Shown here piece by piece: positions 8,133 to 33,314 of a stretch of 54,586 bases of DNA. The notes beneath the pieces are model-generated. The model did not search any database. It worked only from the letters and a program-made list of their open reading frames with translations, and was not told where the DNA came from. The first letter of the stretch is position 1. The number at the start of each line of letters is the position of its first letter. Position numbers and translations under genes: made by a program. Source of the DNA: a virus; the IMG/VR virus record IMGVR_UViG_3300006028_000004, positions 1-54,586 of that record. One strand, 5' to 3'.

Positions 8133-8810
8133 ATGGCCTATCCAGCGCAACCAGCTGATGCAAATACCATCCCGGTATCAAGCGCCTATAACCCGATCAC
8201 CAACATTTTCAAAGCGATCCGGGGCGTCAATAAAGTCACCGATGCCACGCCCAACGATAGTTACGCCGTTGCTACAAGTCCAGAGGACGGCTGGAAAACG
8301 ACCTATAGTGCTTCCATCACGGGGTTGATACCAGGAGCCACGCCGCAAGACATCTTTACCCTGACCGGATCAGCCACAACAAAAACGAAGGTGACCCGGC
8401 TAGAAATCAGCGGGCTAGCGACAGCGTCCACCTGGCTTGAGGTACAGTTGCTCAAGCGCTCGACTGCCAACGCCACCGGCACATTTACCTCACCGACCAG
8501 GGTACCGCTTGATAGCGGGAACGCGGCGGCGACGGCGACGGTCCTCGCCTACACTGCCAATGCTGGAACAGCGGGGACGCTCGTGGGGGCTATACGCAAC
8601 TTCAAGATGCTCCTGCCGCTCGTCACACTGACGGCTACCGACTTCCCAACGGTTGACCGGGTTGTCCTGACATGGGGGCAGGAACGTCCAGGGCAATGCC
8701 CAACGCTGCACGGCATTACCGATGTCTTTGCGGTCAATCTCAATGGCATTACGGCGATAACTGGCTGGACCTTTGATATCAACATCGAATGGTCTGAAGA
8801 GCTACTCTAA
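8133..8810 (+). CDS. Hypothetical tail-region structural protein, 225 aa
   Basis: Preceded by AAAGGAG. Rich in Thr, Ala and Val, with a predicted all-beta composition like virion proteins. Contains TATDFPTVDRVVLTWGQERP near residue 170. No catalytic motif seen. Probably a minor tail or fibre-associated protein by context. Confidence 0.68.
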   Translation: MAYPAQPADANTIPVSSAYNPITNIFKAIRGVNKVTDATPNDSYAVATSPEDGWKTTYSASITGLIPGATPQDIFTLTGSATTKTKVTRLEISGLATASTWLEVQLLKRSTANATGTFTSPTRVPLDSGNAAATATVLAYTANAGTAGTLVGAIRNFKMLLPLVTLTATDFPTVDRVVLTWGQERPGQCPTLHGITDVFAVNLNGITAITGWTFDINIEWSEELL

Positions 8811-18281: not shown

Positions 18282-18452
18282 TTGAGAAAAGTAACACTAC
18301 GCCTGCACGATGACCTCTATACAGAGGTGCAGGCGCAAGCGAAAGAGCACCATCGTTCGATGAATGGGGAAATCACGGTGGTGCTTGCCGCTTATGTCGC
18401 ACGAGAACAGATGAAAAGTAAGAAGAAGAAAGGAGGAAAAGCAGATGATTGA
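18282..18452 (+). CDS. Arc/MetJ-type ribbon-helix-helix regulator, 56 aa
   Basis: Starts TTG at 18282 with a weak GGGGG upstream. The protein opens with a beta strand (KVTLRLHDDLY) followed by two helices (TEVQAQAKEHHRSMNGEI and VVLAAYVAREQ), the pattern of Arc-family DNA-binding dimers, and ends in a Lys-rich tail. It is the first gene behind a promoter with a 15-bp palindrome. It probably represses the 18.2-22.3 kb accessory block. Confidence 0.75.
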   Translation: MRKVTLRLHDDLYTEVQAQAKEHHRSMNGEITVVLAAYVAREQMKSKKKKGGKADD

Positions 18453-20841: not shown

Positions 20842-21594
20842 ATGGATAGAAGTCGGAGCCTTGGGTGGCATAGAGACCTGCCCGACAAACGCGATCTTTT
20901 GTTGCGCGTACCGCCGGTGCACTTACCCCCGTCGGTTGATTTACGCAGCAAGCAATCTCCTATCCGCGACCAGGGCGATCTTGGGAGCTGTACCTCATTT
21001 GCCATCTGTGCGCTCCTGGAATACCAGCATATGCAGCAAAAGCCAGGTACATCCTTTGATTTCTCAGAGTTGTTTGTCTACTACCTGGAACGGGCCAGGG
21101 AGCATACCCTTGACTATGACTCGGGAGCCTACATCAGAGACGGCATGAAGGCGGTGCACGCAACGGGTGTCTGTACCGAAACAGATTGGCCCTATGATAC
21201 CAACAAGTTCACGATGCACCCCTCCAAGAAAGCGTATATGGACGCGAAGTTGGATAAGACGGTCACCTATATGCGCGTGCCGCAGAACGCGGTTAGTCTG
21301 AAGTCGGTACTCGTGCACAACTACTGCTTCGTCTTCGGCTTCAGCGTCTACGATAGCTTCATGACACAACAAGTCGCCAATACGGGGATTGTGCCCATGC
21401 CTGATTTCACGAGTGAGAAGGTAGTAGGCGGCCACGCTGTTGAGTGCGTGGGCTACGATGATACCAAGGGCGTGTATCTCTGTAGGAACAGTTGGGGCAC
21501 ATCCTGGGGGCAATCAGGGTACTTTTCGATACCAGATGCTTATGTGGAGGACAGTCAGTTGTGTGATGACTTTTGGACGGTAGAGCTTGTTTGA
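20842..21594 (+). CDS. Papain-like (C1A) cysteine protease
   Basis: A 250-residue protein; ATG after AAAGGAG. The oxyanion Gln44 and catalytic Cys50 lie in the motif IRDQGDLGSCTSFA, His198 in GGHAVECVGYD and Asn216 in RNSWGTSWG, the complete papain-type active site. There is no signal peptide and only a short N-terminal region (about 30 residues) before the catalytic domain, so no long propeptide. It may act in the host cytoplasm or be released at lysis. Such proteases are uncommon in phages. The target is unknown. Confidence 0.88.
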   Translation: MDRSRSLGWHRDLPDKRDLLLRVPPVHLPPSVDLRSKQSPIRDQGDLGSCTSFAICALLEYQHMQQKPGTSFDFSELFVYYLERAREHTLDYDSGAYIRDGMKAVHATGVCTETDWPYDTNKFTMHPSKKAYMDAKLDKTVTYMRVPQNAVSLKSVLVHNYCFVFGFSVYDSFMTQQVANTGIVPMPDFTSEKVVGGHAVECVGYDDTKGVYLCRNSWGTSWGQSGYFSIPDAYVEDSQLCDDFWTVELV

Positions 21595-21766: not shown

Positions 21767-22316
21767 GATAAAGATCATTTCTTTCGTAGTCGGCCTGCTG
21801 CTTGGCATACCGCTCGGCTATCTTGCTGTGAGTTGCTCGCCTCCTGGTACGCTGCTGAGTACGCAGCCCGCGAAGACGCCTACTATAAAAACAACAGGGT
21901 GCCGGGTACGCGGTCCTCTCCCCGATGCCCTTTGTACGCCGGGAGCTATTTTCCTCCCGGCGGTAACACAAAAGCAAGTGTGTACACCGGGGTACGCGGG
22001 CAGCATGCGCAACGTCCCGACGAGCGAGAAGGCGGCGGTATATAAGGAGTATGGGGTGATCTATCATGCAACGGGAGCCTATGAAGTAGATCATTTAGTG
22101 AGTCTGGAGTTAGGCGGGAGCAATACTATCGCTAATCTGTGGCCGGAGGCAGCCACGCCAACGCCGGGATATCACCAGAAGGACGCGCTTGAGGACTACT
22201 TGCACGCCCAGGTGTGCCAGGGGATGCTCACGCTTGGGTGTGCACAGCGGGTGATTGCGGCGAACTGGCTGGTGGTGTATATGGAGATGGTACAGAAGAA
22301 AGCTATTGCCTGTTGA
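21759..22316 (+). CDS. Membrane-anchored or secreted HNH-like nuclease
   Basis: A 185-residue protein from TTG 21759 (AAAGGAATGG upstream). An in-frame ATG at 21711 would add 16 residues but has no Shine-Dalgarno. An N-terminal hydrophobic helix (IISFVVGLLLGIPLGYLAV) precedes several Cys residues. The core EVDHLVSLELGGSN with NLWPEA and GYHQKDALEDYLHAQVC matches exported HNH-type nucleases whose DH pair forms the active site. It may degrade DNA outside the cell or in the periplasmic space. Last gene of the rightward block. Confidence 0.78.
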   Translation: MDKIKIISFVVGLLLGIPLGYLAVSCSPPGTLLSTQPAKTPTIKTTGCRVRGPLPDALCTPGAIFLPAVTQKQVCTPGYAGSMRNVPTSEKAAVYKEYGVIYHATGAYEVDHLVSLELGGSNTIANLWPEAATPTPGYHQKDALEDYLHAQVCQGMLTLGCAQRVIAANWLVVYMEMVQKKAIAC

Positions 22317-22325
22317 TAAGAAGAT

Positions 22326-22355
22326 GCCCTCCCCGACTCGTGGGCCAGGGAGGGC
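22326..22355. terminator. Hairpin between convergent transcription units
   Basis: GCCCTCCC (22326-22333) pairs with GGGAGGGC (22348-22355). It lies between the ends of convergent genes (22316 and 22369). There is no clear U-run, so termination is inferred from position. Confidence 0.5.
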
Positions 22356-22368
22356 GTGATGTGTGGGA

Positions 22369-22695
22369 CTACTTTGTCCAGACACCTAGTCGCGCTTCAG
22401 CACTTGGGCGTAGATGCCTCTTTGACGGATGATACAAATCCGCTACTTCTCCATTTTCCTCTTTCACCATCTCTAATACATCCTCAGTAAGATCATTTAG
22501 TCGCTGCTGGATAGCAGCGAACCTGTTGGCGTTCGCTGCTGAGAGGTACGCCCCGATAATGCCACCTTGCTCCTGTTGAGCAAGGAACAAGCAGTCATAC
22601 GTCGTCTTCACCAGACTGTTCTCCCTGTCCTTGGGAGCATCTTCGATCATCTGCTTTAATACATTCACATACCATTCTGTTGATGCTCTTGCCAT
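22369..22695 (-). CDS. Hypothetical protein, 108 aa
   Basis: Starts at ATG 22695 (MARASTEWYVNVLKQ) behind GAAAGGAAG; ten upstream in-frame residues are dropped because of that site. Helical, with a charged C-terminus. Distal gene of the leftward block. No family recognised. Confidence 0.65.
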   Translation of the reverse strand: MARASTEWYVNVLKQMIEDAPKDRENSLVKTTYDCLFLAQQEQGGIIGAYLSAANANRFAAIQQRLNDLTEDVLEMVKEENGEVADLYHPSKRHLRPSAEARLGVWTK

Positions 22696-22755
22696 TGTCT
22701 CTTCCTTTCCCCCTTCGCGGGGCACCGGCCCAACACAGGCTGCGGTCTTATTTTG

Positions 22756-23118
22756 CTACACAGGCACTTCAAACACGTTGTCTTCACCGAACTGCACTAC
22801 AAGGACGTTATATGCTTTTTCTTTGTCGCCTAGCTGATTGCGCCTGACAAAGTTCTCAGCCCGTTGCATCGCGTCAGCCTCATCCTGATTGAAATTGCTG
22901 AACGTTGCGCCTGTGCCATTAACGTGATTACTGTGTCGAGAAATCTTGCCTTTCCCGACTTGCCCAATCACGCGGAAGGCATAGAACTCAGGAAGCGCGG
23001 CCATTTTATGAAGTTGATCGGCCAGCCAGGGGCTACGATCTTTCCCGGCGCTTTTCGCTTTTTGGTCTAATGCCTGGGCATCTTCCTCAGAGATGCCCCT
23101 TACGAGAATATCCATCAT
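22756..23118 (-). CDS. RHH (FitA/CopG-like) N-terminal domain protein, 120 aa
   Basis: The N-terminus (ILVRGISEEDAQALDQKAKSAG, then RSPWLADQL) matches the ribbon-helix-helix fold of FitA-type antitoxins. A C-terminal domain of about 70 residues (FRVIGQVGKGKISRHSNHVNG) is not recognised. There is no PIN toxin next to it, so it is more likely a DNA-binding regulator than half of a toxin pair. Confidence 0.68.
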   Translation of the reverse strand: MMDILVRGISEEDAQALDQKAKSAGKDRSPWLADQLHKMAALPEFYAFRVIGQVGKGKISRHSNHVNGTGATFSNFNQDEADAMQRAENFVRRNQLGDKEKAYNVLVVQFGEDNVFEVPV

Positions 23119-23123
23119 TTACT

Positions 23124-23168
23124 TCACCCGTTTCTTCGGCTCTTCCTCACAATCTTTGCCATGTTCAT
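23124..23168 (-). CDS. Tiny basic peptide, 14 aa (tentative)
   Basis: ATG at 23168 after CCAGGAGTA; encodes MNMAKIVRKSRRNG. Too short to judge by composition. Listed because the Shine-Dalgarno and the tight fit between two genes are typical of this operon. Confidence 0.3.
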   Translation of the reverse strand: MNMAKIVRKSRRNG

Positions 23169-23175
23169 TACTCCT

Positions 23176-23195
23176 GGGGAGGCTTGCACCTCCCC
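23176..23195. terminator. GC-rich intergenic hairpin
   Basis: GGGGAGG (23176-23182) pairs with CCTCCCC (23189-23195) around a 6-base loop. It follows the gene at 23206 in the leftward direction. No U-run; may attenuate or protect the mRNA end. Confidence 0.45.
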
Positions 23196-23205
23196 GACTA
23201 TTCGA

Positions 23206-23436
23206 CTACTCAATAATCCCAAGAGCGCGAGCTGTGGCTTTGCACTGGTCAAGTTCGCCAGCCTTGTAGTTGATGAACCGCTCTTCACTCTTTGAGTAAG
23301 AGCCATTCACCTGATACGTGCCGCCCACTCGGGTAGAGTTGAAGTACACGGTTTCGCCTTTGTACTCCTTGCCGTTGGTGTACGCCTGATAGGTGTTGCC
23401 GTTGAATTCGAAGGTTGCTTTCTTTGCTGTTGCCAT
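23206..23436 (-). CDS. Small beta-rich protein, 76 aa
   Basis: Starts at ATG 23436 (MATAKKATFEFNGNTYQAYTNG) behind AAAGGAGAACG. Predicted beta strands (GGTYQVNG, GETVYFNSTRVG). Driven by a consensus promoter with two identical operators just upstream, so probably strongly expressed and tightly controlled. Function unknown; the strength of its promoter makes a host-takeover or anti-defence role possible. Confidence 0.7.
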   Translation of the reverse strand: MATAKKATFEFNGNTYQAYTNGKEYKGETVYFNSTRVGGTYQVNGSYSKSEERFINYKAGELDQCKATARALGIIE

Positions 23437-23468
23437 TTCCGTTCTCCTTTGTGAACTTCTCTTTACTT

Positions 23469-23523
23469 GATATCCAGTGATATCTTCTGTCATAAGTATA
23501 TGATATCCAGTGATATCTGTCAA
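23469..23523 (-). promoter_or_regulatory. Consensus promoter with duplicated 16-bp operators
   Basis: Reading leftward: TTGACA (23523-23518), a spacer of exactly 17 bp, and TATACT (23500-23495). The motif GATATCCAGTGATATC occupies most of the spacer (23502-23517) and recurs just after the start point (23469-23484). The two copies are 33 bp apart, about three helical turns. Each copy has two GATATC half-sites. Confidence 0.85.
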
Positions 23524-23533
23524 GGGCAAAGCA

Positions 23534-23549
23534 TAGTACCATAGTACTA
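23534..23549. repeat. Inverted repeat TAGTAC-N4-GTACTA
   Basis: Perfect 6-bp arms just upstream of the -35 element of the 23518 promoter. Possibly another protein-binding site. Confidence 0.45.
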
Positions 23550-23592
23550 ATTTGCGACGAGTTTGGGGAGTGCGGCAAAACTCGCGTGGTGT

Positions 23593-23657
23593 GGTATACT
23601 ATTCTCGCAACTCTCCCGTCTTTTTTAGCAAAAAGGGAGTTGCGAGAATAGTATACC
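23593..23657. repeat. 21-bp perfect inverted repeat upstream of the CRISPR-like array
   Basis: The left arm 23593-23613 (GGTATACTATTCTCGCAACTC) is the exact reverse complement of the right arm 23637-23657. The centre is T-rich then A-rich (TTTTTTAGCAAAAA), so the whole unit can form a long hairpin. Each arm carries TATACT, and the left arm has an extended -10 (TGGTATACT). The 12-bp piece TGTGGTATACTA recurs after the array at 23886-23897. Confidence 0.8.
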
Positions 23658-23702
23658 TATCAAGGTGGATTGCACCCGCTCTACAGGCTATTCCGTGATG
23701 CG

Positions 23703-23884
23703 GTTGCAAGGGTATCGACCCGTTTGAGGGTACTGAAAGCCATTTATGGAAGCGCTTATCTTTCCCCCCTGTATTGTTGCAAGGGTATCGACCCGTTTGA
23801 GGGTACTGAAAGGCCAGTTTCCGCGAGCAAGAGCAGATGCATCTCGTCAGTTGCAGGGACTTCGATCCGTCGAGGATACTAAAG
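23703..23884 (+). CRISPR. CRISPR-like mini-array, 3 repeats and 2 spacers
   Basis: Two identical 37-bp repeats (23703-23739 and 23776-23812; begin GTTGCAAGGG, end ACTGAAAG) and a degenerate 35-bp third copy (23850-23884). Spacers are 36 bp (23740-23775) and 37 bp (23813-23849) and unrelated to each other. The last repeat is the degenerate one, as at the trailer end of real arrays, so transcription is probably rightward. The internal stem ACCC/GGGT becomes ATCC/GGAT in the third repeat, a compensated pair change. The ACTGAAAG end resembles the 8-nt handle of type I and III crRNAs. No cas genes are present in the genome. Confidence 0.72.
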
Positions 23885-24025
23885 GTGTGGTATACTACTC
23901 GTGTCAAGGCGTTACAGGTAAGGTAAGCGGAAATCACACAACGACGACGCGATACACATCACCCCCCAAAGCCGGGTCACCACCGGTAGCTTCACTTTTA
24001 GCATAACAAGCAGGCGCGCTTGATG

Positions 24026-24062
24026 AAAAGAAAAGCCCTTCATAACGAAGGGCTTTTCTTTT
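24026..24062. terminator. Strong bidirectional rho-independent terminator
   Basis: A 16-bp perfect stem (24026-24041 with 24047-24062), loop ATAAC, core AAGCCCTTC/GAAGGGCTT, flanked by A-runs and T-runs on either side. It lies between the CRISPR-like array and the leftward gene at 24135, so it can end transcripts from both sides. Confidence 0.9.
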
Positions 24063-24134
24063 GGAGAGAGATAAGAGACGGAAGGCGGAAAAGGATGAAT
24101 CCGTCTCAAGTATAGCCGTGTGAGAGGGCACGTG

Positions 24135-24353
24135 TCAAGGCAGGACAATCTTGAGCATCGTCGAGCGCTTCACGCGATAGGCAGTGCGCTTGCCCATGTG
24201 CGGTAAATGGATGGCTTCGAGTGCCCCGCTTTTGATCCACCTCCGTACTGTGGTGTCATCCACGCGCAGCCAGTCAGCTACTTCGCTCACGGTCAAGAGG
24301 TCATCAGGCGCTTCTTTATGCAAAGATGGGGGATGAGATGAAACAGATACCAT
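24135..24353 (-). CDS. MerR/excisionase-type HTH protein, 72 aa
   Basis: ATG at 24353 after AAAGGAAAA. Contains the motif DDLLTVSEVADWLRVDDTTVRRWIKSGALEAIHL, a typical HTH_17 (excisionase-like) domain. In phages such proteins act as recombination directionality factors or transcription regulators. No integrase was found, so a regulator is more likely. Confidence 0.8.
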   Translation of the reverse strand: MVSVSSHPPSLHKEAPDDLLTVSEVADWLRVDDTTVRRWIKSGALEAIHLPHMGKRTAYRVKRSTMLKIVLP

Positions 24354-24420
24354 ACGTGTTTTCCTTTCAAATGTGACTTCAATCAATCAAATACGTGTTC
24401 TTACATAGTATACATGTCTA

Positions 24421-24621
24421 CTACTCTGGTGTCGAGTTATTGGTGCAACCGTGGCGTTTGCGTTCGTCCTCGACGCGAATAGCCTCGAGGAGGAGCGTTT
24501 TGTGCTTCTGTACCCACAAGTGGAACTGCCAGGCGTCATGAGCCGTCAGTTCGATATCGGAATTATCCACATCTTTCAAGACGACTTTAGTGTCACGCAG
24601 ATAGATATCGATTAAGAGCAA
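24421..24621 (-). CDS. Hypothetical protein, 66 aa
   Basis: TTG start at 24621 behind GGAAGGAGAA. The sequence LRDTKVVLKDVDNSDIELTAHDAWQFHLWVQKHK looks like a small alpha/beta fold. No family recognised. Confidence 0.6.
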   Translation of the reverse strand: MLLIDIYLRDTKVVLKDVDNSDIELTAHDAWQFHLWVQKHKTLLLEAIRVEDERKRHGCTNNSTPE

Positions 24622-24639
24622 GGTTATTCTCCTTCCGAT

Positions 24640-24900
24640 TTAGACAGAAACGGAGGTTTTTCCCTCCACGTTAGAGGTTTTTTCCTCTGCAACTGGCGGA
24701 ACTTCCGCCAGTTCATACCCTTCGTCAACTTCCGTGAGGGCGAGAAGTTCCGCTGCTAGGGCTTTATTGATAGCCCGCCAGCGGTGATGAATAGGCCATA
24801 CTGAACGGTCAACATTCTGTTCATTCACATCAACATAGGGGAAAAGAAACGTATCAAATTTAGTGGCTGGCGCTTCTCTGACGTTGTACTTTTGTTCCAT
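24640..24900 (-). CDS. Hypothetical protein, 86 aa, with 3'-end hairpins
   Basis: Start taken at ATG 24900 (MEQKYNVREAP), overlapping the upstream gene by 41 bases; no strong Shine-Dalgarno, so the start is uncertain. The middle (SVWPIHHRWRAINKALAAELLALTEV) looks folded. The last 25 residues are low-complexity and coincide with three tandem stem-loops in the RNA. Confidence 0.5.
   Translation of the reverse strand: MEQKYNVREAPATKFDTFLFPYVDVNEQNVDRSVWPIHHRWRAINKALAAELLALTEVDEGYELAEVPPVAEEKTSNVEGKTSVSV
24652..24713 (-). repeat. Three tandem perfect stem-loops at a gene's 3' end
   Basis: Hairpins: an 11-bp arm palindrome (24691-24713, centre C702), AGAGG-T6-CCTCT (24673-24688) and GGAGG-N6-CCTCC (24652-24667). 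On the leftward transcript the last two loops are A-rich. All three lie just inside the stop codon of the 24640 gene. Confidence 0.65.
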
Positions 24901-25429
24901 TAAGGGGAATGATGTTTTTAGCACGTCTGGCAGAGCCAGATAGGTCGATGATGACCTGTATCCCACGTCCTTCAAGGAGTTCCTTCCTTTCTGGCAGCCG
25001 TTCATGGTGCCGGTAGTCGTAACGTTGACGATCCGAGACATAGAGCGGAAGTTCACCTGTCATCAGATAGAAGTCGAGTAGTTCATCTATCTGAGCTTCC
25101 GTATGTATCCTTCCGCCCTCTCCTTCATATCTCACCTTCCGCTTTGTATGGGGTTCGGAAGTTCTTTCCTCCGGTTCGGAGGAACCTTCCTCCATTGGTG
25201 GCTTTTTTGCTTCCGATTGTACCGGAACTTCTGGTTTCTTCGGAACTTCCATCCGTCGTATAGAAGTTGGTTCCGCTTGCCTGGGTGGAACTTCCGGTTC
25301 TGACTTCACCGGGCGAACTGGTAAGAAGTCGCGCACCTTGCCCGGTTGCATAGGTGAAACAAACACCTGCCGTTGTGGTTCCGGTTGGGTAGGTGCTACA
25401 ATGTGGTCAGGCCGAATAGGGGCAAACAC
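24860..25429 (-). CDS. Pro/Glu-rich protein with C-terminal domain, 189 aa
   Basis: GTG start at 25429 is uncertain, with no good Shine-Dalgarno; the frame is open further upstream without a standard start. Residues 15-100 are disordered and rich in EVP, KPEVP and SEPEE. The C-terminal 90 residues (HTEAQIDELLDFYLMTGELPLYVSD, GIQVIIDLSGSARRAKN) look folded. It follows the membrane protein gene. Function unknown. Confidence 0.5.
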   Translation of the reverse strand: MFAPIRPDHIVAPTQPEPQRQVFVSPMQPGKVRDFLPVRPVKSEPEVPPRQAEPTSIRRMEVPKKPEVPVQSEAKKPPMEEGSSEPEERTSEPHTKRKVRYEGEGGRIHTEAQIDELLDFYLMTGELPLYVSDRQRYDYRHHERLPERKELLEGRGIQVIIDLSGSARRAKNIIPLNGTKVQRQRSASH

Positions 25430-25473
25430 CCGCGCTCGTTCTAACTGAGGAGATACGAGCGCGGGTGTCTCGT

Positions 25474-26349
25474 TTACTGGCGGGCGTGCCCGTTCGACTG
25501 GCTCGGATGACTGGCCTGGGGTATCATCGGAGCGCCGGGAAAAGAATTGTCTGGGTATCTCTGTCCAATACCACGCAAGGCTTCGTCAGCCTGCCGCGAG
25601 CGTTCAGTGAAAGTTTGCCTCTCACGCTCAGTGCGCTCTTGCTCGGAAAGCACCGTTGTCTCTTTCGACCGGCGCTTTTGTTCGCGCCCTTGTTGACGAC
25701 GCTCTCTGTCACTGAATGCGTTATTGGCAACTTCTTCTAAGGCTTTCGGTTCGCCACGTCCCCACCCGGCGAGTTGATCGGGGGTCATCTTACGCACGAG
25801 GCGGCGGGCTTTTTCCGCGAGCCGCAACTTTGCATCGTCCTGGGAAGCAGCGAGGTCGGCATTGGGATCGCGATTTACACAGGCATGAATAACTTTCGCC
25901 ATTTTAATGGCATAGCGCAGGCCGATGATCCCGGCCACGCCGATAAGGAGAGCCGAGGGCAAATCATGATCGTGGAGGGCCACAGTGAGTACGCGAAAAC
26001 CGAGCGAGCACAGTTCGAGCCCTGCCGCCAACTGGACGGTTTCTTTGAAGGCATCAAGATACTCCTGGCTCCCCCGACCTGACCAGACGAAGTTTTGTAC
26101 TTGCGCCTTCAAATAGTCACCGAGGACGAAGGAGACGAAGGCCATCCCGAAAACAATGATACCGAGGCCCCAGGCTCCAATGAGCATACCACGTTCAGGT
26201 CCAAAGACTTTCATCAAGGCTACTTCACCCAGGAAGCCGCCCAAGAGGAAGGCTTGCAGGCCAAAGAAACCATGCACGACGAGAGAAACAACAAAGGCCC
26301 AGGCGAGGGCGATATGTTGGTTATGGATGATACGAAGAACAAGTCTCAT
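25474..26349 (-). CDS. Multi-spanning membrane protein with charged tail, 291 aa
   Basis: ATG 26349 overlaps the stop of the upstream gene (26346). Three to five hydrophobic helices lie in residues 10-160 (IALAWAFVVSLVVHGFFGL, AFLLGGFLGEVALMKVF, LIGAWGLGIIVFGMAFVSF, ALLIGVAGIIGLRYAI). A long basic coiled-coil tail follows (ERRQQGREQKRRSKE, ERTERERQTFTERSRQAD). Such a membrane plus cytoplasmic-helix layout could anchor replication or block superinfection; unproven. Confidence 0.72.
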   Translation of the reverse strand: MRLVLRIIHNQHIALAWAFVVSLVVHGFFGLQAFLLGGFLGEVALMKVFGPERGMLIGAWGLGIIVFGMAFVSFVLGDYLKAQVQNFVWSGRGSQEYLDAFKETVQLAAGLELCSLGFRVLTVALHDHDLPSALLIGVAGIIGLRYAIKMAKVIHACVNRDPNADLAASQDDAKLRLAEKARRLVRKMTPDQLAGWGRGEPKALEEVANNAFSDRERRQQGREQKRRSKETTVLSEQERTERERQTFTERSRQADEALRGIGQRYPDNSFPGAPMIPQASHPSQSNGHARQ

Positions 26350-26808: not shown

Positions 26809-27036
26809 TTAACTTCCTTCCTGTTGGCGGTAGCGTTCGGCCATCGGGCACACTTCCAGCGCGTCATACTGGGCGCGGGTGATCCCAAGCGCACGACACA
26901 CACGAACGATGGAGCGGCCCGCGACCTTCTCCTTGCGGTTCATTTTATACAGGGTGACGCGACTAATCCTCGCCCGGTCGGCCATTTCTTGCGAGGACAA
27001 ATCTTGCTCAATCCAAAGGTCTCTCAACGTGGGCAT
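26809..27036 (-). CDS. Cro/CI-type HTH regulator, 75 aa
   Basis: A compact XRE domain: LRDLWIEQDLSSQEMADRARISRVTLYKMNRKEKV, followed by a capping helix (SIVRVCRALGITRAQYDALEV). Length matches single-domain Cro-like repressors. The 10-bp tandem repeats at 27050-27080 lie just upstream of its start and are good operator candidates. Confidence 0.85.
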   Translation of the reverse strand: MPTLRDLWIEQDLSSQEMADRARISRVTLYKMNRKEKVAGRSIVRVCRALGITRAQYDALEVCPMAERYRQQEGS

Positions 27037-30554: not shown

Positions 30555-31210
30555 ACGGCCACCTCGCTTTCCAGCAGAAGTTCGAGTTGTGGTATCTCTT
30601 CTGGCATGAGCAAGGGCTGCGTGATCTCTAAGCGTTTCCTGGCGATATCAGCCTGTCGCGGGTCAATCTCAAAGCCGATGAAGTTGCGGTTGATCTGTTT
30701 ACAGGCTACTGCCGTTGTCCCGCCACCTATAAATGGGTCAAGGATAGTATCATTAGGGCTTGAAAAACAATCAATATAATATTGAGCCGTATTGACATCT
30801 TGCCCCCAGGTGTGAAAACGTTTGTCCTTGCCGCTACTATTCCAGAGATCAAAGTATTGTCTACGCGGTCGATGTTTGCGGTGCTTAGAGAAAACAAGGA
30901 TGGATTTATAGCGAGCGTGGGCCCACGAACACCACATAATCCCATTGTCTCCCATGTGTTCAGAAACCAGATCCCAGTAATACGTGAGATGAGTTGCTAA
31001 GAGTTGCATAGCCTCAAATTTCCAGTAGGTGCCAACATAGGCAAGAAGAAACCCGTCAGGTTTGAGGACTCGTGCAGCTTCTTCTGAGAGCCACCCGTAG
31101 AGGTGGATGTGCTCCTTCACGTAGGGGGGATCGGTAAAGATCAGGTCAATACTCTCACTTGGAATATCTTTCGTGAGTTCCCTGGCATCGCCCGTAATGA
31201 TAGTGTTCAT
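30551..31210 (-). CDS. DNA methyltransferase (N4/N6, beta-class order)
   Basis: A 219-residue protein. The catalytic DPPY lies at 27-30 (LIFTDPPYVKEH) and the SAM-binding motif DPFIGGGTT at 158-166, an order typical of the N6_N4_Mtase family. It methylates exocyclic amino groups of adenine or cytosine. There is no partner restriction enzyme, so it probably protects phage DNA from host restriction or marks it. It lies in the replication cluster, overlapping both neighbours by 4 bases. Confidence 0.9.
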   Translation of the reverse strand: MNTIITGDARELTKDIPSESIDLIFTDPPYVKEHIHLYGWLSEEAARVLKPDGFLLAYVGTYWKFEAMQLLATHLTYYWDLVSEHMGDNGIMWCSWAHARYKSILVFSKHRKHRPRRQYFDLWNSSGKDKRFHTWGQDVNTAQYYIDCFSSPNDTILDPFIGGGTTAVACKQINRNFIGFEIDPRQADIARKRLEITQPLLMPEEIPQLELLLESEVAV

Positions 31211-32628
31211 AGTGCCACCCCTACCTGCGCTTGAGAGCGTTCAAAGGCGGCTTTGCGCTCGGCGTTGAGTTGCAGGATCTTCGCCGTGTAGGGGTCCATG
31301 ACCATCGTGGGCTTGCCCGGCTCTGGCATCTGTCCGGCAGGGGCATCACGTGCGGGCCAGCGCCCTAACTCTTTCAAGAATTCACGAGCATTTTGTGCTT
31401 CGTCAAGAATAACGCGCCCACCCGCCCGATGTCTCTCAGATGGTTTCTTATAGGGGAAACGTTCAGCCAGCACGAAGTTATCAATCATCTTGATCTGCAT
31501 ATCAGTGTAGGTATCAACGAGAAACGCAATGCATTCCGACTCATTGATACGACCGCCCTTCAGGGGAAGGAGTTCCCCGCCGCGTCTTTGATTAAAGTAC
31601 GCTTGCCACTTTCGCCGCCGCTCCTGTATCTCAGGTGAACATTCTTTAATACTGAGACGTTTTTTATTTTTCTCTTTCCCATCCGTCTTATAGGGTGAGG
31701 GTGCATTTTTACCACCCTCTGACGATAAAGGCGAAACAAGTAGCGTGGGTATCAATGCGACCTGTGTAGGCGTTATCCTCGTAGACTCAACTTGTAGCAT
31801 CACTGGCGTAGGTTCAGGTATCACTCGTGAAGACTCCTCTGGCCTGCTCTCGCTTTTCGTAAGTGGGGAAGGGTCCAGAGGAGTCTTTCTATTCTCTTCA
31901 AGATTTTCCCCAAAAGAAGAAAGACGAGAGAGAAAAGCATTACCCTCGTCACTTTCTCCGTCAGGAGAAATGACAAAGGAAGATTCCTTTCTATTCTGTA
32001 AAGTTCCTTTAATTCTATCGGCTTCAAAAACAGGTGTAACTCCTTGCTCTCGTGTACCTTCAGCCTCTTTGGTGGTTTCCAAATTTGAGAGTTGGGATTT
32101 CAATTTTGTGATCCTGGTTTCCAAATTTGAGAGGGTGGTTTCCAAATTTGAGAGTTGGGATTTCAATTTTGTCGCCTTTTCTTGACGTTCCTGTGCTTGC
32201 GCCTCTGCTGATGGTTCTTTTTTAGGAGCGGCTTTTCCACGGGGTTTCTTGGGAAAAGCTACCGGAGGATTGGCAATGGTCTCATTAATGATCTGGATAG
32301 AAACAGCATAGCGGTGTCTATATCCGTCAGCTTTGATATACCCCCAGGCGGCAAGCTGCTTTATGTAGGTGATGAGCGAGTTTTGACTGATCGTCACTTT
32401 TGCCAGAATATCTTTGTGCTCACACTCTACGGTGATAGCAGGAACTTCTGTCCAATCAATACCCTCGTTCTTTGCTACCCAACTTGCTCTATAGACGAGG
32501 AAGCCCAAGACTTTGCCTATCTCGACATGACCACGACAGACAAGGGTAAAGGACTTATGTTCAATATCGCCAATGTCACCAGGAGGAACGAGCCAGGGCG
32601 TGCGCGGTGGGCGTGCTGTTTGCGTCAT
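31207..32628 (-). CDS. Replication initiator-like protein with coiled-coil repeats
   Basis: About 473 residues; ATG at 32628, or GTG at 32631 overlapping the upstream stop. The N-terminal 110 residues carry a winged-helix pattern (DILAKVTISQNSLITYIKQLAAWGYIK) like phage O/DnaD-type initiators. Residues about 150-195 are heptad repeats (KLKSQLSNLETT). The C-terminal 130 residues (SIKECSPEIQERRRKWQAYFNQRR, then FVLAERFPYKKP) may contact other replication proteins. It sits upstream of the helicase loader, as in lambda O-P. Assignment by pattern and context. Confidence 0.65.
   Translation of the reverse strand: MTQTARPPRTPWLVPPGDIGDIEHKSFTLVCRGHVEIGKVLGFLVYRASWVAKNEGIDWTEVPAITVECEHKDILAKVTISQNSLITYIKQLAAWGYIKADGYRHRYAVSIQIINETIANPPVAFPKKPRGKAAPKKEPSAEAQAQERQEKATKLKSQLSNLETTLSNLETRITKLKSQLSNLETTKEAEGTREQGVTPVFEADRIKGTLQNRKESSFVISPDGESDEGNAFLSRLSSFGENLEENRKTPLDPSPLTKSESRPEESSRVIPEPTPVMLQVESTRITPTQVALIPTLLVSPLSSEGGKNAPSPYKTDGKEKNKKRLSIKECSPEIQERRRKWQAYFNQRRGGELLPLKGGRINESECIAFLVDTYTDMQIKMIDNFVLAERFPYKKPSERHRAGGRVILDEAQNAREFLKELGRWPARDAPAGQMPEPGKPTMVMDPYTAKILQLNAERKAAFERSQAQVGVAL
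32073..32172. repeat. Intragenic 21-bp-period repeats (iteron candidates)
   Basis: TGGTTTCCAAATTTGAGAG occurs at 32073-32091, 32115-32133 and 32136-32154. Copies 1 and 3 extend to identical 37-bp units (to 32109 and 32172). Spacings are 42 and 21 bp. They encode heptads of a coiled coil. Their A+T richness and place inside an initiator-like gene also fit an origin of replication. Confidence 0.75.
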
Positions 32629-33314
32629 CACATCACCTTCTCCCCTGCTTCATCTTCACTCATACCCTCTTCTGCCATCAGCCTTTTCCATTCTCTGACC
32701 GCCTCACGTATATCTTCGTCATCGTCATCAATTTGTGGGATTTCACAGAGCCTTAGCGCAACCTCTGCTAATTTTACCCAGTACTTATCAGCATTTATAC
32801 TCCACTTGCTACAGGCAGAGTGGTACAAATCAAGAAAAACCTCTCCATACCGTAGCCCAAAATGGGTGATACCGAGCGTATTGATAGCAAGAAGTTGTCT
32901 TTGTTCTTCCTTGGGCAGAGTTATAAATTCCCATTGAAAAGCGGAAAGATACTCCCCCTTTCTTTGCGGATTGCCCTGGATGTTCTGTAATGGGTGCCCT
33001 TTTTTAAGGAGGTCTTGTATCCAGTAGGCTTCATACTTGCGAGCGAGCCGTATACCGTGAATACGTGGTTCAAGTGGGATAGTGATAGGGGGCATATCCT
33101 TCTCGATCATTTCACGGATCCAGGCTTTTTGTGAGAAGTGCTGTTTGCGGCGTTGCTCTATATCAGTAGTAATGCCGACATAGATGGCCTGCAGGTCTAT
33201 GGAATGAACTATGCCATAGACCGAATACTCTTCCTCTTGGGATTGAGGACATGGTGTCTCTAGCCCGATTGCTGTCCTCAACGCAGCGCCAGGCGTGGGA
33301 AGGTAGGTACCCAC
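32628..33314 (-). CDS. GIY-YIG domain protein, 228 aa
   Basis: GTG start at 33314 (AAAGGG upstream). The N-terminal catalytic module YSVYGIVHSIDLQAIYVGITTD, followed by IEQRRKQHF and a Glu-containing EAYWIQDLLKKG, matches GIY-YIG nucleases. The C-terminal 100 residues (SAFQWEFITLPKEEQRQLLA, KLAEVALRLCEIPQIDDDDED) differ from ordinary homing enzymes. It may be a homing endonuclease or a domesticated repair or replication nuclease. It is in line with its neighbours rather than inserted in reverse. Confidence 0.82.
   Translation of the reverse strand: MGTYLPTPGAALRTAIGLETPCPQSQEEEYSVYGIVHSIDLQAIYVGITTDIEQRRKQHFSQKAWIREMIEKDMPPITIPLEPRIHGIRLARKYEAYWIQDLLKKGHPLQNIQGNPQRKGEYLSAFQWEFITLPKEEQRQLLAINTLGITHFGLRYGEVFLDLYHSACSKWSINADKYWVKLAEVALRLCEIPQIDDDDEDIREAVREWKRLMAEEGMSEDEAGEKVM

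Follow-up and report, generated by a model that had tools for sequence, protein, structure and literature searches.

The window analysed here, the whole stretch of 54,586 bases, is the record of a tailed phage that encodes a terminase large subunit (PF04466), an amidase (PF01510) and, on the rightward strand at 20842–21594, a papain-family cysteine protease (PF00112, E 3.2e-24). A leftward run of three small genes of 76, 120 and 118 aa extends from a near-consensus promoter on the minus strand, and is followed by a hairpin and by convergent rightward genes. The first gene (23206–23436, minus strand) encodes a candidate cargo protein for which no relative was found in viral contigs, phage records or 47 genomes of the presumed host class. 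Searches of Pfam, PHROGs, NCBIfam and PADLOC with this 76-aa protein gave weak sub-threshold family matches or none, and its AlphaFold model is poor (pLDDT 45). The second gene (22756–23118, minus strand) encodes a protein of 120 aa, the proposed autorepressor, with an N-terminal ribbon-helix-helix (RHH) domain of the VapB/FitA type and a conserved C-terminal domain. The third (22369–22725, minus strand), to which no family was assigned, encodes 118 aa from a GTG start or 108 aa from an ATG at 22695. The gaps are 87 bp between the first and second genes and at most 60 bp between the second and third, and we infer that the three genes share one transcript. A terminator-like hairpin found by hairpin scan after the third gene (22326–22355, minus strand) is weak on its own, since the region holds 18 such hairpins where 18.4 are expected. 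Another hairpin lies between the first gene and the RHH gene (23116–23206, z −2.1), followed by a basic reading frame of 14 codons that runs up to the RHH start; these elements could set the ratio of cargo to repressor. An Rfam search of 22000–26000 returned nothing at gathering score.

Outside the operon, on the plus strand, is a CRISPR mini-array (23703–23883) consisting of two identical 37-nt repeats, two spacers and a degenerate third repeat. It has the identical repeats and unique spacers of a CRISPR array, and its repeat is of a type known from arrays of the presumed host group. Within the genome collection the phage repeat matched one stretch, in a Ktedonobacteraceae metagenome-assembled genome (MAG) in which related repeats form arrays, with 8 copies within 3 mismatches of the MAG's own repeat; allowing up to 3 mismatches, the phage repeat occurs in 1 of the 47 genomes of the presumed host class. 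It was this match that set the host class for the homolog search and, judging from the repeat, the phage probably infects soil bacteria of the Ktedonobacter group. A search of 4 genomes or records with spacer 1 found no match, and a literature search on Ktedonobacter phages showed nothing on point. In front of the array, at 23593–23657, lies a perfect 21-bp inverted repeat with 23 nt between its arms, which as RNA would fold at about −41 kcal/mol (z −10 to −13 on either strand); its outer part, GGTGTGGTATACTATTC (23588–23604), recurs with one change after the array at 23884–23900. Further along, the gene at 24135 encodes a helix-turn-helix (HTH) protein that a family scan assigns to the excisionase/BldC-like type. 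A TCGACA-17-TATACT promoter precedes this gene (24407–24435), and at its end, within 24026–24138, a leftward TTGACA-18-TATACT promoter is followed after about 50–80 nt by a strong bidirectional terminator-like hairpin, making the interval a candidate small RNA.

The operon promoter reads, on the minus strand, TTGACA (23523–23518), a 17-nt spacer and TATACT (23500–23495), so that the two boxes carry 11 of 12 consensus letters. The element GATATCACTGGATATC is present in the spacer and again just past the −10 box, the copies lying 33 bp apart. Written on the plus strand, it is GATATCCAGTGATATC at 23502–23517, filling the spacer, and at 23469–23484, with a start-to-start distance of 33 bp. Identity between the copies extends to 18 bp (23468–23485 against 23501–23518), and a Shine-Dalgarno sequence, AAAGGAG (23444–23450, minus strand), stands 7 nt before the ATG of the 76-aa frame. 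The initial annotation had described a consensus leftward promoter with an operator-like spacer and a second identical copy 33 bp off, and this proved exact on re-reading. Its placement of the second copy at +1 needs adjusting, as transcription would start at about 23488 and the copy would then span roughly +4 to +20. Nor is the 16-bp operator best taken as one unit: each copy resolves more naturally into a pair of GATATC palindromes spaced by 10 bp, so that 4 bp separate them (GATATC-ACTG-GATATC), giving four hexamers in all, and in relatives of the operon the hexamers are 9 bp apart.

Near-consensus promoters are not uncommon in this DNA: they number 23 in 20 kb against 15.6 expected, and two further promoters scoring 10–11 of 12 lie within 1 kb of the operon promoter. 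The window holds 35 copies of GATATC, for the most part dispersed. With up to 3 mismatches, the operator 16-mer is matched twice in the whole window, with no third copy, and shuffled sequences gave a mean of 0.43 single matches, 7 of 100 shuffles having two or more; this loose search is not significant on its own. Exact 16-mers repeated within 60 bp were seen in 0 of 200 dinucleotide shuffles of the whole window, and the real window has them in three places, namely the operator, 10288/10327 and 32073/32115/32136, so near repeats as such are not unique to the operator. The last of these (32073–32151) comprises a 16-mer three times, 42 and 21 bp apart, in the gene at 31207–32631, and corresponds to a repeated SQLSNLET protein stretch.

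The initial annotation saw no obvious cognate repressor adjacent to the promoter. The RHH protein encoded at 22756 is, however, the second gene of the promoter's own operon, and the sites accompany the RHH gene in two of its four homologs as well. Its residues 1–41 match the NCBIfam VapB-family antitoxin model NF050181 (E 2.7e-7, below that family's own cut-off), and a profile built from the window protein and three homologs matches residues 1–42 to the solved chain 3h87_C (E 1.5e-4). Searched alone, the window protein had no Pfam match, and the Pfam RHH models were not reached at E 1. A single-sequence AlphaFold model of low confidence places a strand at residues 2–10 and helices at 11–24 and 28–39, the strand-helix-helix order of the N-terminus of RHH regulators. 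Taken together, these matches identify the 120-aa product as a predicted RHH protein with an extra conserved C-terminal domain.

Four full-length homologs of this protein were found. Three come from the 47 genomes of the presumed host class (3/47, the same three being recovered by a five-row profile), and one, L044, came from a profile search of viral contigs and lies in a phage record of 50 kb. Over a 6.3-kb stretch of this record, at least four other frames match proteins of the window with E of 1e-4 or below, so the L044 phage is a distant relative of the window phage; the phage CRISPR repeat is absent from this 6.3-kb locus. Three more distant RHH matches among 400 genomes of the phylum cover only the first 45–47 residues, are VapB-antitoxin-like and were excluded from the homolog count; two of them (L041 and L043) are apparently followed by PIN-like frames, as judged by reading.

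For two of the four homologs, those of the host-class genome G034 (locus L028) and phage L044, a near-consensus promoter stands at the head of the operon, with paired GATAT(C) sites at the two positions seen in the window. In G034 the arrangement TTGACA-GAGATATCTCAGATATCT-TATCCT-ATTAGG-GATATCTGAGATATC stands directly before the RHH homolog, which is the first gene there and is followed by an alpha/beta hydrolase gene. In L044, TTGACA-TACAGATATCTACGATA-TATACT-...-GATATATGTGATATC is followed by a 66-aa gene and then by the RHH homolog; within this TTGACA-17-TATACT promoter, GATATC-TAC-GATATA occupies the spacer and GATATA-TGT-GATATC lies just downstream. Relative to the first start codon of the operon, the sites begin at −81/−48 in the window, −82/−54 in L028 and −75/−46 in L044, and for each upstream region 0 of 2000 shuffles reached the observed motif counts. 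The two-site repression design proposed initially thus gains support from comparison, as the layout recurs before RHH homologs in a bacterial genome and a second phage, with binding by the RHH protein as the presumed link. Several details are not kept: the hexamers are spaced by 10 bp in the window and 9 bp in the relatives, the sites are separated by 33 bp against 28 and 29 bp, and their orientation is direct in the window, inverted in L028 and roughly inverted in L044. The first gene is not conserved either, being a different small gene in the L044 phage (blastp between the 76- and 66-aa products gave E 0.76 over nine residues, which is no similarity, and neither product could be placed in a protein family) and missing from G034. 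Because the window and L044 phages are related, they are not fully independent cases, and the host copy in G034 is the better one.

Scanning the 47 genomes for three or more hexamers in this pattern gave five places, of which the RHH promoter of G034 alone has all four; the pattern, which permits N3 spacing, was picked after L028 had been seen, and a reversed-pattern control also matched, in two genomes. Of the other four places, two are internal to long reading frames, a third is in a mechanical frame and the fourth is outside any listed frame; the three genomes concerned gave no match to the RHH query. The L044 phage has GATAT-N4/5-GATAT at three places, two of which are the promoter of the RHH operon. 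Searches of viral contigs found no exact double operator. With the looser TTGACA-GATATC-N4-GATATC there were 10 stretches, for the most part falling into groups with nearly identical surroundings, and mostly with a TATA-like −10 at the right distance; since blastp of window frames against these loci gave three weak matches only, all to L015, these stretches were not counted as support, and GATATC pairs do occur inside other viral promoters with no RHH homolog found. AT-rich phages (L005, L006, L007 and L009–L014) have GATATC-N4-GATATC filling the spacer of a TTGACA promoter, apparently an independent use of the spacer-operator design. Double N4 sites were found in four stretches (L016–L019). 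Three were set aside as repeats, with L017 and L018 within reading frames and L019 reading like the reverse of L017; these 10-bp-phased, TGATATC-containing repeats may be replication iterons. L016 was also rejected, being a promoter-like region in a phage of 68% G+C whose downstream protein has no RHH match; several GATATC/GCTATC hexamers stand in a row there (8611–8670) between two divergent genes. Double N3 sites gave five stretches, all simple repeats by eye.

The paired sites accompany the RHH gene in the window, L028 and L044, and are absent upstream of the two other homologs, L029 and L030, both of which adjoin transposase genes or their remnants. A parallel difference is found in the protein. 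The three operator-bearing proteins have D3, L5 and R7 in the strand, which reads DIL(V/I)R(G/D), and the two operator-less ones have D3, W5 and A7 (DLWIAD). In a model of RelB, strand residues 3, 5 and 7 contact bases and R7 is conserved (PMC2812701). By this analogy, the change from L5 and R7 to W5 and A7 is likely to be a loss of base-contacting residues, and loss of the sites would then go with loss of the contact residues; the comparison spans five sequences, in which the near-identical L029 and L030 count as one event.

The DNA itself shows a promoter with its sites, the order of the genes, an RHH domain and the return of the sites beside RHH homologs. On these grounds, the four GATATC hexamers are most likely the operator of the 120-aa RHH protein encoded by the second gene of the same operon, and the cognate regulator is thus very probably the operon's own product. 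On unrepressed phage DNA, the near-consensus promoter would fire and the 76-aa, RHH and 118-aa proteins would be made. As RHH dimers build up they would bind the hexamers, presumably one dimer per palindromic GATATC, and neighbouring dimers could pair across about one helical turn over each couple spaced by 9–10 bp. With one couple between the −35 and −10 boxes and the other where the transcript begins, RNA polymerase would be kept out, and since the couples cover the spacer and the first transcribed bases, occupation of either one would be enough to stop initiation. The RHH protein being a product of this very operon, the circuit would be one of negative autoregulation, with an early pulse of the first gene before the operon shuts itself down. 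The lack of any further operator in the window is what would be expected of a local autoregulator, not of a master repressor. The locus is therefore best read as a phage operon whose cargo varies and which is controlled by its own RHH protein, much as in acr-aca or toxin-antitoxin operons. Promoter and regulator can now be tested together, as four GATATC hexamers with a specific RHH protein to go with them, and the two homologs that lack the sites as well as the contact residues provide a natural contrast set.

Other explanations of the sites were weighed against autoregulation by the RHH protein. It is very unlikely that a different regulator occupies them, whether the HTH protein at 24135 (which the initial annotation had named as a candidate beside the RHH protein), a Cro/C1-like protein at 26809, an Arc-like protein at 18282 or a host factor. 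These three proteins are all encoded in the window, and hexamers one helical turn apart would fit an HTH dimer too. Yet the L044 phage carries the operator without a match to the 24135 protein (G034 gives five matches to that query), the 26809 protein has no match in the L044 phage or G034 (in a query that had no positive control), and the two-site promoters found to date precede RHH homologs. Of the two candidates first named, the RHH protein is supported and the excisionase/BldC-like HTH protein is not. That the repeated 16-mer arose by chance or by neutral tandem duplication, with no regulator involved, is exceedingly improbable: TGACAGA does precede both operator copies at a 2-nt offset, as a duplication might leave, but L028 and L044 have sites in the same two promoter positions with other central bases and spacing.

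A third account is compatible with the RHH protein as the operator ligand and concerns what the operon is for. Here, the small first gene would be a toxin, and the RHH protein both antitoxin and autorepressor, in a toxin-antitoxin operon of reversed gene order. In its favour, the RHH domain belongs to the VapB/FitA class of antitoxins, and antitoxins with such domains repress their own operons via paired sites (PMC2812701, PMC3920265). We nevertheless regard this account as rather unlikely, given that family scans of the 76-, 118- and 66-aa proteins found no PIN or other toxin family, and that the two phages do not share their first gene, which has no counterpart in G034, where the hydrolase gene follows the RHH homolog.

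A more speculative proposal, which we put forward tentatively and consider doubtful, is that phages of Ktedonobacteria use the operon as an anti-defence cassette, with interchangeable small inhibitors (76 and 66 aa) and an RHH autorepressor resembling an Aca protein, placed beside a host-type CRISPR mini-array. The array lies 180 bp from the operon, which makes an anti-defence role worth testing. Candidate RNA anti-CRISPRs cluster with acr genes within 1 kb, and the neighbour in the window is a mini-array with two identical repeats, a kind of array that the same source sets apart from solitary repeats (PMC10651486). Some predicted anti-defence proteins of archaeal viruses have RHH domains (PMC11065993). 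The mini-array neighbour, these RHH domains and the likeness to acr-aca operons are hints only. If the first genes do inhibit host defence, the RHH protein and its operator would serve as a search handle, or bait, for inhibitors in an understudied host group. To our knowledge, no such inhibitors are known from Ktedonobacteria.

Among known designs, engineered promoters of the PLtetO-1 type place operators within the spacer of a consensus promoter and next to it, as in the window; here, the promoter is natural, the site is another one and the presumed ligand is an RHH and not a TetR protein. In relBE of E. coli, RelB is likewise an RHH autorepressor of a strong promoter, acting on four 6-bp repeats with dimers on one face and with modelled base contacts by residues 3, 5 and 7, including the conserved R7 (PMC2812701). 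In contrast, relO comprises two adjoining half-sites with no spacing allowed (PMC2812701), whereas the window has separate pairs at the spacer and the transcript start; the window operon also has no RelE-like toxin that we found, and its RHH gene is second, not first. FitAB and VapBC share an N-terminal RHH of the same type, and FitAB, as a complex, occupies 36 bp within its own promoter region (PMC3920265, PMC3384007). They differ in that no PIN toxin gene was found adjoining the window RHH gene, and the C-terminal domain of the window protein is longer and different; a literature search for the letters of the FitA operator gave nothing useful. Also to be set beside these are acr-aca operons, controlled by Aca1 or Aca2, in which a phage promoter carries inverted-repeat pairs over the −35 and −10 boxes, two such pairs in acrIF8-aca2, and a small variable first gene precedes a conserved DNA-binding repressor (PMC8434428, PMC9765179). 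Some toxin-antitoxin loci likewise combine a conserved autorepressor with first genes that can be exchanged. The window operon is short in the same way, its small genes all on one strand and a DNA-binding protein encoded after the first; in place of an HTH Aca of known family, it has an RHH domain. The Aca families, 12 by a count of 2022, all have helix-turn-helix domains (PMC8434428, PMC9765179), and a search combining RHH with Aca showed no RHH-type Aca in the literature that it covered. Were the anti-defence proposal true, the window operon would thus add to those 12 families an Aca-like regulator built on the ribbon-helix-helix fold.
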